This document shows positions 42,561 to 49,539 of a stretch of DNA of 64,000 bases, in pieces. The position numbers and the translations under genes were made by a program. Origin of the DNA: Comamonadaceae bacterium (GTDB lineage: Bacteria > Pseudomonadota > Gammaproteobacteria > Burkholderiales > Burkholderiaceae_C); contig CANGDZ010000007.1 of NCBI GenBank assembly GCA_947452785.1, positions 1 through 64,000 of the forward strand. Reading direction: 5' to 3'. The notes beneath the pieces are model-generated. The model saw nothing but the letters and a program-made list of their open reading frames with translations, ran no database searches and had not been told where the DNA came from. Positions within the stretch are counted from its first letter, which is position 1. The number at the start of each line of letters is the position of its first letter.

Positions 42561-42854
42561 TTATTTTCCTTTGGCGGGTGAAGGGGCGGGCGACGGGATG
42601 GGGGAAATTTCGGTCGCTGTTGGGGGTGTTGCTGTGGCCGGTTTGGTCTCGGCCTCGGTGGGTGATGGAAGTGTAGGGACTGGGGCCGCGTCTTGCGGGG
42701 TCACACGCAGGGCTTGTGGTTGAATTTGGGTTTTGAGCCGCACCGGCTCGCTGACCTCGATCGGCCCCAGATCGAAGGCACGCAGTTCGCCGTGACTCCA
42801 CAACCAAAAAACGCCATTGGCGGCCACCAAAGCCAAAACGATCCATCTCCACAT
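42561..42854 (-). CDS. Hypothetical single-pass membrane protein with Pro/Thr-rich tail
   Basis: 97 aa from the ATG at 42854, which shares a base with the birA stop; a TTG one codon upstream is possible. One N-terminal membrane helix (WIVLALVAANGVFWLW) is followed by a 75-residue low-complexity region rich in Pro, Thr, Ala and Glu. A periplasmic spacer or the truncated start of an SPOR-type protein would look similar, but no SPOR domain is present. I do not recognise a family. Overlap with birA implies co-translation. Confidence 0.65.
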   Translation of the reverse strand: MWRWIVLALVAANGVFWLWSHGELRAFDLGPIEVSEPVRLKTQIQPQALRVTPQDAAPVPTLPSPTEAETKPATATPPTATEISPIPSPAPSPAKGK

Positions 42855-43642
42855 CAAATGTTCTCCTGATGTGCGGCGGGCCGCACGCTGACTTCTGAGC
42901 TGTGAACGCTGACCACGCCGCGCGGCGTTTCAATTTGCAATGCCCCGCTGGCGTCAACCCCCATCGCACGACCGTGCACACCATCACTGGTGGCGACCAT
43001 CAAGCCCTGCAACACATCGCGCGCATGAAAGCGTGCTTGCAGCGGGGCAAAGCCCGTCAAGGCAAAGCCCTGCACGGCCATCACCAAAGGCGCGGCCACG
43101 CGGCCTAAAGCGTCTGCGGCGGTGATGCCAGGCAGCCATTGGGTCAAGGCCGCCGGTGGCGTGCGCAAACCCTCAACGGGTTGGGGCTCAACGTTCAGGC
43201 CGACACCGATCACCACATAACTGTGGCTGCCGGTGCTGGCCGCTTCGATCAAGATACCGCCAAGTTTGTGGCCCTCAATCCATAAATCGTTGGGCCACTT
43301 CAGGCCCACCTGCGTGTGCAGGTTTTCGGCCAGACTCAAACCCACCGCCAACGACAGGCCCGACCAATCCTTGGGGGCGATGGGCAAACCCAGCGAAAAC
43401 GTCAAGGAGTCCCCTCGCTGGCTGACCCATTGTCGGCCCAAGCGACCGCGCCCCGCGCTTTGGCTTTCGGCCACCAGCAGCACTGCATCGGTCTGCCCGG
43501 CGCGTGCGCGGCGCATCAACTCGGTGTTGGTCGAGTCGATCTCGGGCAAGATTTCGACACTGAAGCCGGGTATTTGGGGTGACACGGCCTCCCAAATGGC
43601 TTCGGCGGGCCAGCGCATCAAGGAGTCGAGCTGTAGGGCCAT
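42854..43642 (-). CDS. birA: Biotin-[acetyl-CoA carboxylase] ligase
   Basis: 262 aa. Catalytic marks: IDSTNTELMRRA, the biotinyl-AMP loop SAGRGRLGRQWVS, LKWPNDLWIEGHKLGGILIE and the Gly-rich GVGLNVEP. The N-terminal helix-turn-helix of E. coli BirA is missing, so this is a monofunctional (group I) ligase without repressor activity. It biotinylates the carrier protein of acetyl-CoA carboxylase. It overlaps the small membrane protein gene downstream. The SET-domain gene lies 15 bp upstream on the same strand. Confidence 0.95.
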   Translation of the reverse strand: MALQLDSLMRWPAEAIWEAVSPQIPGFSVEILPEIDSTNTELMRRARAGQTDAVLLVAESQSAGRGRLGRQWVSQRGDSLTFSLGLPIAPKDWSGLSLAVGLSLAENLHTQVGLKWPNDLWIEGHKLGGILIEAASTGSHSYVVIGVGLNVEPQPVEGLRTPPAALTQWLPGITAADALGRVAAPLVMAVQGFALTGFAPLQARFHARDVLQGLMVATSDGVHGRAMGVDASGALQIETPRGVVSVHSSEVSVRPAAHQENI

Positions 43643-43657: not shown

Positions 43658-44281
43658 TTAACGTCGGGCCTTAACGGGCGATTTCGTGGCGGCCTTGGTG
43701 GGTGTCTTTGTCGGTTTCTTGGCGGGCTTCGCTACTTTGCCCGCTTTGATGGGCTTGACCGGCTCAGGGGCGGCTTTTTTCACCTGGCTGGGGATCTTGG
43801 GCGTCGCAGGCCTGCGTTTGGGCGCCAGCAGCGTTTTACGGCAGTTGGCGCTACCGCACCAGCAAGGGTATTCGGCTTTGAGCTTGGGGGTGTAGGGCTC
43901 GTCAATGATCAGGCCGTAGTCATAGTTCAGCTCTTCACCCGCGTGGATGTTGCGCAAGGCCTTGATGAAGATGCGGTCGTTGTCCTCGTCGGCTTCACAG
44001 TTCGGGTCGCAGCTGTGGTTGATCCAACGCGAAGAGTTGCCCTCGTTCACCGCGTCGATCACTCGGTCTTCGTTCACATGAAAGTAAAAAGTGTGGTTCG
44101 GATCGCTCGGGTCATGCGGGTGGCGGTCTTGGGCTTCTTCCCAGCTGATGATCTCGCCCACGTACTCGATCAAGGTCTCGCCTTCGGCAATATCGACCAC
44201 GGCAAAGACACCCTTGCCGTGCACACCCGAGCGGCGAACTTGAATACGGCGATTTGACGTTGGAGCAGGTTTTTTGGCCAC
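43658..44281 (-). CDS. SET-domain protein-lysine methyltransferase with histone-H1-like tail
   Basis: 207 aa from a GTG at 44281, which directly precedes AKKPAPTSNRRIQVRRSG; no ATG fits, and the more distal open frame lacks family character. SET motifs: HGKGVFAVVDI (21-31), RWINHSCDPNCEA (85-97) and GEELNYDYG (115-123). The post-SET zinc motif is CWCGSANCRK (140-149). From residue 155 the chain is a Lys/Pro/Ala tail (PVKPIKAGKVAKPAKKPTK and so on), like histone H1 C-termini. Bacterial SET enzymes can methylate Lys on DNA-binding proteins; the target here is unknown, and its own tail is one possibility. It is divergent from the SWIB-tailed topoisomerase gene. Confidence 0.9.
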   Translation of the reverse strand: MAKKPAPTSNRRIQVRRSGVHGKGVFAVVDIAEGETLIEYVGEIISWEEAQDRHPHDPSDPNHTFYFHVNEDRVIDAVNEGNSSRWINHSCDPNCEADEDNDRIFIKALRNIHAGEELNYDYGLIIDEPYTPKLKAEYPCWCGSANCRKTLLAPKRRPATPKIPSQVKKAAPEPVKPIKAGKVAKPAKKPTKTPTKAATKSPVKARR

Positions 44282-44314
44282 GGTTGAAAAATTTGTTATG
44301 GTGAAAGCATGTGG

Positions 44315-44334
44315 GCGCGCGCATGTGTGTGTGC
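44315..44334. repeat. 20-bp perfect alternating purine-pyrimidine tract (Z-DNA-prone)
   Basis: Eight bases of GC alternation, a central AT step, then TG alternation, without a break over 44315-44334. Another such stretch (12 bp, CG/CA-rich) follows near 44354-44365. Both lie between the divergent SET and topoisomerase III genes, where negative supercoiling from divergent transcription would favour Z-DNA. Confidence 0.8.
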
Positions 44335-44385
44335 CCGTGGGCGAGCGCGCACCTGCGCGCACGCGAGACACTGGATTGTAATGAG

Positions 44386-47358
44386 ATGAAAAACGAAGTT
44401 ATCGGCAAGACCTTGGTGATTGCAGAAAAGCCATCGGTGGCGCAAGACATCGTGCGCGCGCTCACGCCCGTGGCCGGCAAGTTTGAGAAACACGACGACC
44501 ACTTTGAGAGCGACACTTATGTAGTGACCAGCGCGGTGGGTCACTTGGTCGAAATTCAGGCCCCTGAGCAGTTTGACGTGAAGCGCGGCAAGTGGAGCTT
44601 TGCCAACTTGCCGGTGATCCCGCCGTTCTTTGATTTGAAGCCGGTCGACAAAACCAAGACCCGGCTCAATGCGGTGGTGAAACAAGCCAAGCGCAAAGAC
44701 GTCAGCGCCCTGGTCAACGCCTGTGATGCGGGCCGCGAAGGCGAGTTGATCTTCCGCTTGATCGAACAGTACGCTGGCGGCGCCAAGCCCCTGGGCAAGC
44801 CGGTGACACGCCTGTGGCTGCAGTCGATGACGCCACAAGCCATTCGTGATGGCTTTGACCACCTGCGCAGCAACAGCCAAATGCAGGGCCTGGCCGATGC
44901 CGCCCGCAGCCGCTCAGAAGCCGACTGGTTGGTGGGTATCAATGGCACACGCGCCATGACCGCCTTCAACTCGCGCGATGGCGGGTTCTTCTTGACCACC
45001 GTGGGCCGGGTGCAAACGCCCACGCTGGCCGTGGTGGTGGAGCGCGAAGAGCAGATTCGCAAATTCATCAGCCGCGACTATTGGGAAATTCACGCCAGTT
45101 TTGCCGCTGCCGCAGGCAGCTACCCGGGCAAATGGTTTGACCCGCAGTGGAAGAAAACCGACGAAGACAGCGAGAAAAAAGCCGACCGTCTGTGGACCGA
45201 ACGCGAAGCGCAAGCCATTGCCAACGCGGTGCGAGATCAACAAGCCACGGTCACCGAAGAGGCCTCGCCCACCACGCAAGCCAGCCCCGGCTTGTTCGAT
45301 TTGACGTCCTTGCAGCGTGAGGCCAACGGCAAATTCGGCTACTCCGCCAAGACCACCTTGTCGCTGGCGCAAAGCCTGTACGAGCGCCACAAGGCCTTGA
45401 CCTACCCGCGTACCGACTCGCGTCATCTGCCCGAAGACTATGTGGCTGTGGCCAAGCAAACCTTTGAAATGCTGGCCGACAGCGGCATGAAGCATTTGGC
45501 CCCGCATGCTTTGACCGCGCTGAATAACAACTACGTGCGCAAACTGCCGCGTGTGTTTGACAACAAAAAAGTCTCGGATCACTTTGCGATCATCCCGACC
45601 TTGCAAGCGCCCAGTGGCTTGTCTGAGGCCGAGCAAAAAATCTATGACTTGGTGGTGCGCCGCTTTATGGCGGTGTTCTTCCCCAGCGCTGAATACCAGG
45701 TGACCACCCGCATCAGCAAAGTGGCGCAGCACCACTTTAAAACCGTGGGCAAGGTGCTGGTCAAGCCCGGTTGGTTGGCCATTTACGGTAAAGAAGCCGC
45801 CGAAGAAGTGGCGGACGCCAAAGACGGCGACAAGGGCCAAAACCTGGTGCCGGTGCAAGCGGGCGAGCAAGTCGGCGTGGAATCGGTGGACGCCAAGGGC
45901 CTGAAAACCCGGCCACCCGCGCGCTACTCAGAAGCCACCTTGCTCGGCGCCATGGAAGGCGCAGGCAAGCTGGTGGACGACGATGAACTGCGCGAAGCCA
46001 TGCAAGAAAAAGGCTTGGGCACGCCTGCCACGCGCGCGGCCACCATTGAAGGCTTGATCAACGAAAAATACATGCTGCGCGAAGGACGCGAGTTGATTCC
46101 GACCGCCAAAGCCTTTCAGCTCATGACGCTGCTGCGTGGCCTGGGCGTGGAAGAGCTCTCGCGCCCTGAATTGACGGGCGAGTGGGAATACAAGCTGGCG
46201 CAAATGGAGCAAGGCAAACTGAGCCGCGATGACTTCATGAAAGACATCGCCGCGATGACCGAGCACATCGTCAAAAAGGCCAAAGAGTACGACCGTGACA
46301 CGGTGCCCGGCGACTACGCCACCTTGCACGCGCCCTGCCCCAATTGCGGCGGCGTGGTCAAAGAAAACTACCGCAGATATACATGCGTCGGAGCCGAAGG
46401 CGCCACTGAAGGCTGCGGCTTCTCGTTTGGCAAATCACCCGCTGGGCGCACCTTTGAGCCCGCCGAAGTGGAACAGTTTTTGACCGACAAGAAAATCGGT
46501 CCCTTGGAAGGCTTCCGCTCCAAAGCCGGCTGGCCTTTTGTGGCCGAGATGGCACTCAAATTCAGCGAAGAAGACAAGAACTGGAAGCTGGAGTTTGACT
46601 TTGGCGACGACAAAAAGAACGAAGAAACCGGTGAGATCGTTGACTTTTCACAGAGCGAGTCTTTGGGCGCTTGCCCCAAGTGCGGCAGCCCCGTGCATGA
46701 GCGCGGCAGCAACTTTGTCTGCTCTAAAACCGTGCCCACTGAAGCGCAACCCACACCAAGTTGCGACTTCAAGAGCGGCAAGATCATCTTGCAACAACCG
46801 GTCGAGCGCGAGCAGATGACCAAGTTGCTCGCCACCGGCAAGACCGACTTGCTCGATAAGTTCGTCAGCATGCGCACGCGCCGTTCGTTCAAAGCGTTTT
46901 TGGCGTGGAACGCCGAAGAAAACAAAGTCAGCTTTGAGTTCGAACCGCGCGTGAGCAAGTACCCGCCACGCAAAACCAAAACCCCGTTTGGCAAAGCGGC
47001 ACCGGCCAAGGCGGCGGGCAAAACCGCAGCCAAAACCGCTGCCGCCAAAACCGCCAAAGCACCGGCCAAAAAAGCCGTGAAATCTGCAGCAAAGTCGGCT
47101 GCGGTCAAAACCCCGCGCAAAGCCGCAGTGGGCAATTTGACGCCCAGCGCCGCGTTGGCGGCGGTGATCGGCGACGGCAAAGTAGCGCGCACCGAGGTGA
47201 TCAAAAAGCTGTGGGACTACATCAAGGCCAACAACTTGCAAGACGCGACCAACAAGCGCGCCATCAATGCAGACGCCAAACTCAAGGCGGTGTTTGGCAA
47301 AGACCAGGTCACCATGTTTGAGCTGGCCGGTATTGTGGGCAAGCACGTGAGTGCTTAA
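44386..47358 (+). CDS. topB: DNA topoisomerase III with C-terminal Lys/Ala linker and SWIB domain
   Basis: 990 aa from the ATG at 44386. Toprim domain: LVIAEKPSVAQDI with Glu14, and NACDAGREGELIF. The active-site Tyr is 340 (LTYPRTDS). Two Cys-rich zinc-ribbon-like modules follow (CPNCGG...C...C and CPKCGSPV...C...C). Residues about 858-914 are Lys/Ala/Pro-rich, like a histone H1 tail, and 915-990 form a SWIB/MDM2 domain (VGNLTPSAALAAVIG, EVIKKLWDYIKANNLQD, FELAGIVGKHV). The core relaxes and decatenates DNA. E. coli TopB is about 650 aa; the extra 300 residues are the tail. SWIB in eukaryotes belongs to chromatin remodellers. Confidence 0.96.
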   Translation: MKNEVIGKTLVIAEKPSVAQDIVRALTPVAGKFEKHDDHFESDTYVVTSAVGHLVEIQAPEQFDVKRGKWSFANLPVIPPFFDLKPVDKTKTRLNAVVKQAKRKDVSALVNACDAGREGELIFRLIEQYAGGAKPLGKPVTRLWLQSMTPQAIRDGFDHLRSNSQMQGLADAARSRSEADWLVGINGTRAMTAFNSRDGGFFLTTVGRVQTPTLAVVVEREEQIRKFISRDYWEIHASFAAAAGSYPGKWFDPQWKKTDEDSEKKADRLWTEREAQAIANAVRDQQATVTEEASPTTQASPGLFDLTSLQREANGKFGYSAKTTLSLAQSLYERHKALTYPRTDSRHLPEDYVAVAKQTFEMLADSGMKHLAPHALTALNNNYVRKLPRVFDNKKVSDHFAIIPTLQAPSGLSEAEQKIYDLVVRRFMAVFFPSAEYQVTTRISKVAQHHFKTVGKVLVKPGWLAIYGKEAAEEVADAKDGDKGQNLVPVQAGEQVGVESVDAKGLKTRPPARYSEATLLGAMEGAGKLVDDDELREAMQEKGLGTPATRAATIEGLINEKYMLREGRELIPTAKAFQLMTLLRGLGVEELSRPELTGEWEYKLAQMEQGKLSRDDFMKDIAAMTEHIVKKAKEYDRDTVPGDYATLHAPCPNCGGVVKENYRRYTCVGAEGATEGCGFSFGKSPAGRTFEPAEVEQFLTDKKIGPLEGFRSKAGWPFVAEMALKFSEEDKNWKLEFDFGDDKKNEETGEIVDFSQSESLGACPKCGSPVHERGSNFVCSKTVPTEAQPTPSCDFKSGKIILQQPVEREQMTKLLATGKTDLLDKFVSMRTRRSFKAFLAWNAEENKVSFEFEPRVSKYPPRKTKTPFGKAAPAKAAGKTAAKTAAAKTAKAPAKKAVKSAAKSAAVKTPRKAAVGNLTPSAALAAVIGDGKVARTEVIKKLWDYIKANNLQDATNKRAINADAKLKAVFGKDQVTMFELAGIVGKHVSA

Positions 47359-49004: not shown

Positions 49005-49259
49005 ATGTCAATTATTCAAACAATCTATGCGCGAAACACGGTCAGCATGACTGACTTGCGCCGCAACCCCGCTGAAGTCATCAAGGTTGCCAACCGCTCT
49101 CCAGTAGCTGTTTTGAATCATAACAAGCCAGCGGCCTATTTGATTTCTGCAGTCGACTACGAGGAGATGATCGACAGACTTGAAGATGCTGAATTGACTC
49201 GAATCGTCAAATCTCGCGCGGGTGGAAAAACGGTCAAGGTGAAACTTGACGACCTATAG
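49005..49259 (+). CDS. Type II antitoxin, Phd/YefM family
   Basis: 84 aa. The N-terminal DNA-binding part NTVSMTDLRRNPAEVIKVANRSPVAVLNHNKPAAYLIS is the Phd/YefM fold, with the YxxM-like DYEEMIDRLEDAEL and a basic tail (RAGGKTVKVKLDDL) that would wrap the toxin. It neutralises the downstream RelE-type toxin and represses the operon. The pair resembles the StbD/StbE and RelB/RelE arrangements. The antitoxin comes first and the toxin start overlaps its end by 14 bp. Confidence 0.9.
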   Translation: MSIIQTIYARNTVSMTDLRRNPAEVIKVANRSPVAVLNHNKPAAYLISAVDYEEMIDRLEDAELTRIVKSRAGGKTVKVKLDDL

Positions 49260-49539
49260 CCTTGAGTTCCATGTCTTGGCTCTCAAGGAGTGGAATAAGT
49301 TAGATGGCTCCATCAAGGCGCAGTTTCAAAAAGTCTTGATTAAGAGACTGGAACAGGCACATGTGTCCGCTGCCAAACTGAGGGGCGATCTTCAAAACAC
49401 CTACAAAATCAAATTGCGGGATGTTGGTTACAGGCTTGTTTATGAAGTCATTGATAGAAAACTAGTCGTCATTGTTCTTGCGGTTGGCCGACGCGACCAT
49501 GACAAGGCGTATGACCATGCCGCCAAGAGATTAGGGTAA
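49246..49539 (+). CDS. Type II toxin, RelE/ParE superfamily
   Basis: 97 aa with a TTG start at 49246 inside the antitoxin end, behind AAGGTG. Fold marks: SLEFHVLALKEWNKLDGSIKAQFQKVLIKRL, then AAKLRGDLQNTYKIKLRDVGYRLVYEV and VVIVLAVGRRDHDKAYDHA. The Arg/Lys cluster and C-terminal RRDHDKAY fit RelE-type ribosome-dependent mRNA interferases. Overlapping genes keep the two proteins in step. The neighbourhood (AT-rich gap, possible IS end) suggests horizontal arrival. Confidence 0.92.
   Translation: MTTYSLEFHVLALKEWNKLDGSIKAQFQKVLIKRLEQAHVSAAKLRGDLQNTYKIKLRDVGYRLVYEVIDRKLVVIVLAVGRRDHDKAYDHAAKRLG

Follow-up and report, generated by a model that had tools for sequence, protein, structure and literature searches.

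In Escherichia coli, the topoisomerase genes gyrA, gyrB and topA have promoters that are regulated by supercoiling, and it has long been an open question whether left-handed Z-DNA serves any conserved function in bacteria. A discriminator sequence has been proposed for the supercoiling response of bacterial promoters generally (PMC8422995). In humans, the flank of c-myc has been mentioned as a case of Z-DNA (PMC3024258), and Z-forming sites have been described at transcribed regions (PMC5066173). Here we analyze in silico a gene pair in a 64,000-nucleotide stretch of a Comamonadaceae genome (contig CANGDZ010000007.1 of assembly GCA_947452785.1, positions 1 to 64,000; hereafter the window), in which a gene for a SET-domain protein and topB, the gene for DNA topoisomerase III, are read away from each other across a short spacer that carries an alternating purine-pyrimidine tract. 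We propose, with a probability of roughly 0.6, that this tract belongs to a selected, Z-DNA-type and supercoiling-responsive promoter element of topB, situated beside a SET enzyme. Like gyrA, gyrB and topA, it would represent a topoisomerase gene whose promoter is expected to answer to supercoiling, but here with a conserved alternating, Z-prone tract, and on topB. With the animal cases near promoters and transcribed regions it would share Z-prone DNA at promoters, whereas this is a single bacterial locus, with an alternating run of at least 12 nucleotides (nt) in 91 of the 100 spacers from two sets of loci and about 90 genera.

The initial annotation had pointed out the divergent pair of SET and SWIB-tailed topB in the window, 104 bp apart between starts, which is borne out by Pfam and NCBIfam matches and by the coordinates. 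Its conservation among related genomes, proposed there as a check, is stronger than could be known from one stretch. SET matches were found in 235 of 250 family genomes, as opposed to 38 of 150 genomes of the order, and several of the 15 family genomes without a match are small. The first set comprised 80 family loci from 79 genera, picked among the better-scoring matches listed; because this choice favored high scores, a second set of 30 further genera was added from the lower-scoring part. The SET query (P0001) includes 30 residues from the open frame of the spacer, and since its matches may extend into spacer with stops, the linkage counts use the SET core. topB was divergent from SET in 78 of the 80 first-set loci (L135 is cut short by the edge of its contig, and the 12.7 kb of L151 contain no topB) and in 28 of the 30 second-set loci (L412 and L416 have no topB in view), that is, in 106 of 110 family loci, an arrangement far beyond chance. 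In 72 of the 78, the aligned starts lie less than 400 bp apart, which defines the 72 family spacers considered below.

The tract, the most unusual feature of the locus, had gone unmentioned in the initial annotation; it is long and rare in its surroundings. Runs of at least 12 nt are present in 68 of the 72 family spacers and runs of at least 20 nt in 51, with a median of 24.5 nt, while dinucleotide-preserving shuffles gave a mean of 9.5 and 61 of the 72 spacers fall individually below 0.05. Over 78 loci, 56 runs of at least 20 nt were counted in 15 kb of spacers versus none in the 913 kb of largely coding flanks; in the second set, 23 of 28 spacers reach 12 nt and 16 reach 20 nt, and the surrounding 91.5 kb contain no run of at least 20 nt. 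A named set, which retained 73 of 80 loci under the same criteria (seven dropped) and consists mostly of close relatives of the window, some genomes being shared with the first set, showed runs of at least 12 nt in all 73 spacers and of at least 20 nt in 28. At the whole-genome scale, a purine-first alternating 20-mer occurs at three places in the 3.5-Mb source genome, one of them the window tract and the other two read as lying within coding frames; the backward control pattern, likewise alternating, gave five matches at unmapped positions. In 20 further family genomes, a purine-first 24-mer was found at 14 distinct places, ten of which are the topB spacer, and in nine of those ten genomes it is the only such place. 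With no run of at least 20 nt in the flanks and few places per genome, we rejected a general abundance of such tracts as their source. The steps of the longest runs are 49% CG/GC, 45% CA/TG/AC/GT and 6.5% AT/TA, and this richness in CG and CA/TG steps is that expected of a Z-DNA-forming element. As a separate observation, ACACGC tandem repeats form long alternating tracts outside the SET-topB spacer at G228:C1:2312234 and G269:C1:732825.

The way in which the tract changes is more telling than its length. We compared disjoint pairs of relatives, pooled from the family and named sets, for transitions, which preserve alternation, and transversions, which disrupt it. Over 63 pairs, the ratio of transitions to transversions was 175:111 in the tract against 267:396 in the remaining spacer (p = 3.4e-9), the flanks giving 2408:2381. 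The 21 pairs without spacer gaps gave 26:3 in the tract, 43:34 in the rest of the spacer and 657:407 in the flanks (p = 0.0011 for tract versus rest). A simulated neutral process, realigned likewise, gave 0.66, and in locally alternating context, compared under a slightly higher identity ceiling, the counts were 26:40 outside the tract and 24:3 inside it (p = 1e-5). The simulation, the ungapped pairs and the context control led us to reject an alignment artefact as the source of the transition excess. Moreover, in shuffles preserving the purine/pyrimidine (R/Y) pattern, neither RNA folding strength (z = -0.06) nor palindrome content (z = -0.13) stood out, so that an RNA leader structure and a palindromic operator were rejected as the cause of alternation. 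Selection thus appears to have acted on alternation rather than on the exact sequence, as is expected of a Z-DNA-forming regulatory element.

The energetics of the B-to-Z transition, with energies from Table 1 of PMC3024258, point in the same direction; here the rank of energies is what counts, as the absolute probabilities of the model are unreliable. Among the first 40 of the 72 loci, the spacer had the lowest B-Z energy of its locus of ~12 kb in 39 at a superhelix density of -0.03; the median margin was 4.2 kcal/mol. The margin in the window is small at this density, with -8.4 for the spacer and -6.66 elsewhere (only the energy of this competitor is used, as its printed place falls, by a tie, within the excluded stretch). 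Within a simplified model, the energy of the spacer is therefore low relative to its surroundings.

Most spacers share one order of elements when topB is read rightward, namely the SET start, an AT-rich block, the alternating tract, a GATTGTA-like motif and the topB start. An ATTGTA-type motif is present on the right in 73 of 73 spacers (72 of the family and the window) against a shuffle mean of 2.8 of 72, by a pattern that was defined after the spacers had been viewed, and for the block on the left a permissive regular expression, run without a shuffle control, finds a match in 71 of 73. We suggest that the two are outward -10 elements of topB and SET, respectively. The spacer would then be a control region shared by the two divergent genes, and what selection maintains in it would be the capacity of the tract, flanked by the outward -10-like motifs, to adopt the left-handed Z form. 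Under negative supercoiling the tract would flip to Z-DNA and thereby absorb twist, which may alter, in one direction or the other, how often the topB promoter fires and perhaps the SET promoter too. As TopB would remove negative supercoils and decatenate DNA, it could then reset the local topology and close a homeostatic loop, while the substrate of the SET enzyme would probably be a topology or nucleoid protein, TopB being one candidate. Should this be so, the tract would be a natural sensor of supercoiling.

Several points weigh against this proposal. A scan of the spacer for consensus promoters found none, and the B-Z model is a simplified one that treats a single run in a 5-kb domain. In the window itself the tract is only moderately long (20 nt; dinucleotide-shuffle p = 0.0065). 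Runs stay below 12 nt in four of the 72 family spacers (L099, L129, L147 and L148) and in five of the 28 second-set spacers (L393, L408 and L413-L415), and seven of the 20 further genomes lack any purine-first 24-mer. Upstream of topB, the longest run is 6-7 nt in g118, a genus without SET, and 11 nt in the loci of families f4 and f6. It is also possible that a protein reading degenerate pyrimidine-purine (YR) steps preserves alternation as well.

Table 1. Features of the SET-topB locus in the window
Feature	Position	Strand	Remark
birA-type biotin protein ligase	42854..43642	-	codirectional with SET; same strand in 80/80 loci
SET-domain protein-lysine methyltransferase (predicted)	43658..44281	-	207-aa form, GTG start 44281
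Lys/Ala/Pro-rich C-terminal SET tail (residues 155-207)	43661..43819	-	unconserved in most orthologues
Catalytic NHSC motif of SET (residues 88-91)	44009..44020	-	N88 H89 S90 C91 invariant in alignment A2
Divergent SET-topB spacer, 104 bp	44282..44385	.	between gene starts
Candidate leftward -10-like element for SET (AT-rich block)	44295..44300	-	putative
Imperfect extended Z-prone segment	44308..44365	.	lowest B-Z energy of 1206 overlapping window segments at superhelix density -0.05
Perfect alternating purine-pyrimidine tract (CG/TG), 20 nt, Z-DNA-type	44315..44334	.	longest run in the 64-kb window
Candidate rightward -10-like element of topB (GATTGTA)	44374..44380	+	putative
topB, DNA topoisomerase III, 990 aa	44386..47358	+	ATG start 44386
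Lys/Ala-rich TopB tail (residues 858-914)	46957..47127	+	basic in all complete family TopB
SWIB domain of TopB	47140..47349	+	Pfam SWIB, 9e-26

SET is the only Pfam domain of the window protein (E = 3e-25), whose reading frame stays open upstream as far as a GTG at 44371; the SET domains of MLL1/KMT2A are its best solved relatives, and its best named matches are Comamonadaceae, many of them Limnohabitans. In alignment A2, made of eight diverse SET relatives with the window SET among the rows, N88-C91, Y120-Y122 (YDY) and C140, C142 and C147 are invariant, residues that we assign to the catalytic motifs NHSC and YDY and to the cysteines of the post-SET region. By this domain and these residues the protein belongs, as judged from sequence, to the SET-domain lysine methyltransferases, and it is probably a working enzyme; birA, the next gene on its strand, is likely cotranscribed with it. 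TopB matches the Pfam domains Toprim, Topoisom_bac, Toprim_Crpt and SWIB and the NCBIfam model NF011313/PRK14724 (1970.2 bits against a cut-off of 1088, over model positions 3-988 of 988), and its sequence identifies it as a full-length SWIB-tailed topoisomerase III of this known family. It scores 193.5 bits on PRK06319, the equivalog of the chlamydial SWIB TopA, far from the cut-off of 868.

The initial annotation had likened the Lys/Ala/Pro-rich tails of both proteins to histone H1. Both tails lie at the residues given there, but the one on SET is no common feature: in the 77 of 80 family loci in which it was measured, it has at most 25 residues in 56 and at least 10 Lys in 14, and we rejected it as a conserved H1 mimic since it is short in most orthologues. 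By contrast, a basic segment, defined by a K+R content of at least 20%, is present in all 75 complete family TopB proteins, with or without SWIB. SWIB itself was found in 56 of 80 family loci (56 of the 75 complete TopB) and, being missing from 19 of the 75 complete TopB proteins linked to SET, does not belong to the conserved pair; a coupling between SWIB and SET was rejected on the same count. Elsewhere in the source genome, a second SWIB domain at G000:C55:20210-20425 belongs to an open frame of 140 aa that seems to encode a small protein of its own, and a second SWIB match is common across many family genomes.

Family genomes without SET allow the parts of the locus to be viewed separately. 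In all nine in which both were seen, birA and topB stand next to each other in divergent orientation. In the 11 with readable DNA upstream of topB (one of which, G284, has a weak SET match elsewhere), the run is at least 16 nt in six; of the others, one has runs of 11 and 10 nt, one has an AT-rich run of 11 nt only, and three are those of g118 with 6-7 nt. The tract, retained before topB in these six, thus goes with topB in the family, and we rejected its dependence on SET. Nor did a dependence of the TopB tail on SET hold up, for the basic tail is mostly retained in genomes without SET: it contains Lys in genera g118, g130 and g165 and is nearly lost in the incomplete genome G242. Such retention makes it less likely that the tail is preserved for methylation by SET, although the tail may still be methylated. 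In the SET-less genus g116 (L181, L182 and L183), the basic tail is Arg-rich instead of Lys-rich, which could reflect composition or a lost requirement for lysine.

Beyond the family, SET lies beside a topoisomerase gene in some lineages. In family f6 (one genus, four genomes), SET and topB are convergent in all four, and gyrB directly precedes SET in the three with sufficient contig; in genus g34 of family f32, SET follows gyrB in four of four loci, while the other 26 f32 loci examined have no match to gyrB, parE, parC or topB within 1.5 kb. topB lies roughly 4-7 kb from SET in both f4 loci and roughly 8 kb away in one of two f8 loci, and parE/parC are about 5 kb away in the f11 locus. The remaining SET loci of the order and class show no topB, gyrB, parE or parC in the fetched stretch (topA and gyrA were not queried by their own sequences). 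As most SET loci of other families thus lack a topoisomerase gene there, we rejected the idea that SET occupies one shared location throughout the order. In these families, the longest run within 300 bp upstream of SET is 12 nt at most. The SET proteins of f1, f6 and g34 occupy different parts of the SET tree, the bootstrap support being not fully settled, which suggests that SET came, or continued, to lie near topoisomerase genes on more than one occasion; a single ancestral gene cluster may also have given rise to all of them. SET lies immediately downstream of dnaA-dnaN-gyrB in L271, L276, L280, L287 and L296, of which L276, L280 and L287 belong to f6 and have SET convergent with topB as well, and in three f47 loci (L278, L281 and L283) it adjoins a codirectional gene of one cluster, with an ilvD-type dehydratase in L278.

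What else could maintain the tract? It might consist of clustered degenerate sites bound by a protein with a preference for alternating YR steps, with Z-DNA incidental. To the eye, blocks such as GCACACATGCG and GCGCACGCGAGA do recur near the motifs in groups of loci; however, letters vary inside the R/Y pattern, transitions are tolerated above transversions, and palindrome content matches what the R/Y pattern alone predicts, so we regard this reading as unlikely. Far less credible still is an RNA hairpin or attenuator in the topB leader. The RNA of the tract folds well, with z about -3 against mononucleotide shuffles, yet this advantage vanishes (z = -0.06) once the R/Y pattern is preserved. 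In addition, the tract precedes the candidate -10 of topB and would hence not be part of the topB mRNA, and the sole Rfam match, to mir-297, scores 21 bits against a threshold of 90 and is taken as chance.

The role of SET is a separate matter. In the hypothesis of the initial annotation, SET places methyl groups on lysines in the tail of TopB, in the tail of SET itself or in histone-like nucleoid proteins, and DNA topology is tuned in this way. The intact SET and post-SET residues, the linkage to topB in 106 of 110 loci and to gyrB in two other lineages, and the basic tail in 75 of 75 complete TopB proteins from SET-bearing family loci would all suit such an activity, as would the automethylation described for a chlamydial SET protein (PMC2904774). 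But the SET tail is unconserved, SWIB is uncoupled from SET, and a lysine-bearing TopB tail persists in g118, g130 and g165 without any SET. The intact motifs and the linkage to topB and gyrB fit a topology-related role, but the chromatin-tail mechanism is not favored and appears doubtful to us. Alternatively, SET may stand beside topB merely by descent and act on an unrelated protein, with the tract used by topB only. The direct birA-topB neighborhood in nine of nine SET-less genomes, the dearth of nearby topoisomerase genes at most SET loci of other families and the lack of a SET match in 15 of 250 family genomes, several of them small, would all agree with such neutral synteny; retention of SET-topB in 106 of 110 loci and the separate tree positions of the topoisomerase-linked SETs of f1, f6 and g34 speak against it, and we consider it a real possibility, though short of even odds. 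Returning to the proposed promoter element, a wider version would have a native bacterial Z-DNA switch control topoisomerase III throughout the family, paired with a SET enzyme that modifies the topology machinery as a module of sensor and modifier. We advance this version only tentatively.

Conserved Z-DNA elements at bacterial topoisomerase genes, and links of SET to topB or gyrB, did not appear in the titles and abstract beginnings of the open-licence papers listed by our searches. The locus offers an evolutionary signature of Z-DNA, in which alternation is retained as letters change, next to a gene whose product acts on the very stress that produces Z-DNA, and it is small enough to be amenable to reporter testing. 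It also brings to notice a widespread, little-studied SET enzyme with relatives beside topB or gyrB in three lineages. The chlamydial SWIB-TopA fusion, described in 2025 as unique among TopAs (PMC12445093), resembles window TopB in being a type IA topoisomerase with a C-terminal SWIB after a flexible region but differs in that the window enzyme is topoisomerase III, not I. In the family studied here, topoisomerase III commonly bears a SWIB tail, whereas the same paper called SWIB rare in prokaryotes outside Chlamydia. SET, SWIB and topoisomerase domains have been suggested to form a chromatin-modifying complex in Chlamydiae (PMC6426960), a remark that fits the spirit of the initial annotation. 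The parallel drawn there with Chlamydiae is imperfect, as the chlamydial fusion is on TopA and it is disputed whether the SET protein of Chlamydia methylates the histone-like Hc1 (PMC2904774, PMC6426960). Basic C-terminal regions are also known from actinobacterial TopA, where lysine repeats have been tied to processivity (PMC7398561), and from E. coli topoisomerase III (PMC9369019); the tail of the window enzyme is longer, Lys/Ala-rich and, in the family, often followed by SWIB.

Among the secreted bacterial SET methyltransferases, LegAS4/RomA, NUE and BtSET (PMC3980110, in whose available main text the word topoisomerase does not occur) share the SET domain with the window protein, and NCBIfam NF043024 (Dot/Icm effector AnkI/LegAS4) aligns over its SET region. 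This match covers the SET part only and reaches 44.1 bits, far below the cut-off of 550, SET is its sole domain in Pfam, and SET proteins of the window type are kept beside topB across a family in which freshwater bacteria are numerous.

Two more SET matches are present in the source genome, at G000:C53:6134-6568 and G000:C24:7994-8377 (L385 and L386). The copy on C53 is 61% identical and lies near a gene that looks by eye like a Crp/Fnr-like regulator, and no topoisomerase gene was recognized by eye within the stretch listed. Elsewhere in the window, at 49246-49539, a 97-aa open reading frame resembles, by eye, a toxin of the RelE/ParE type.

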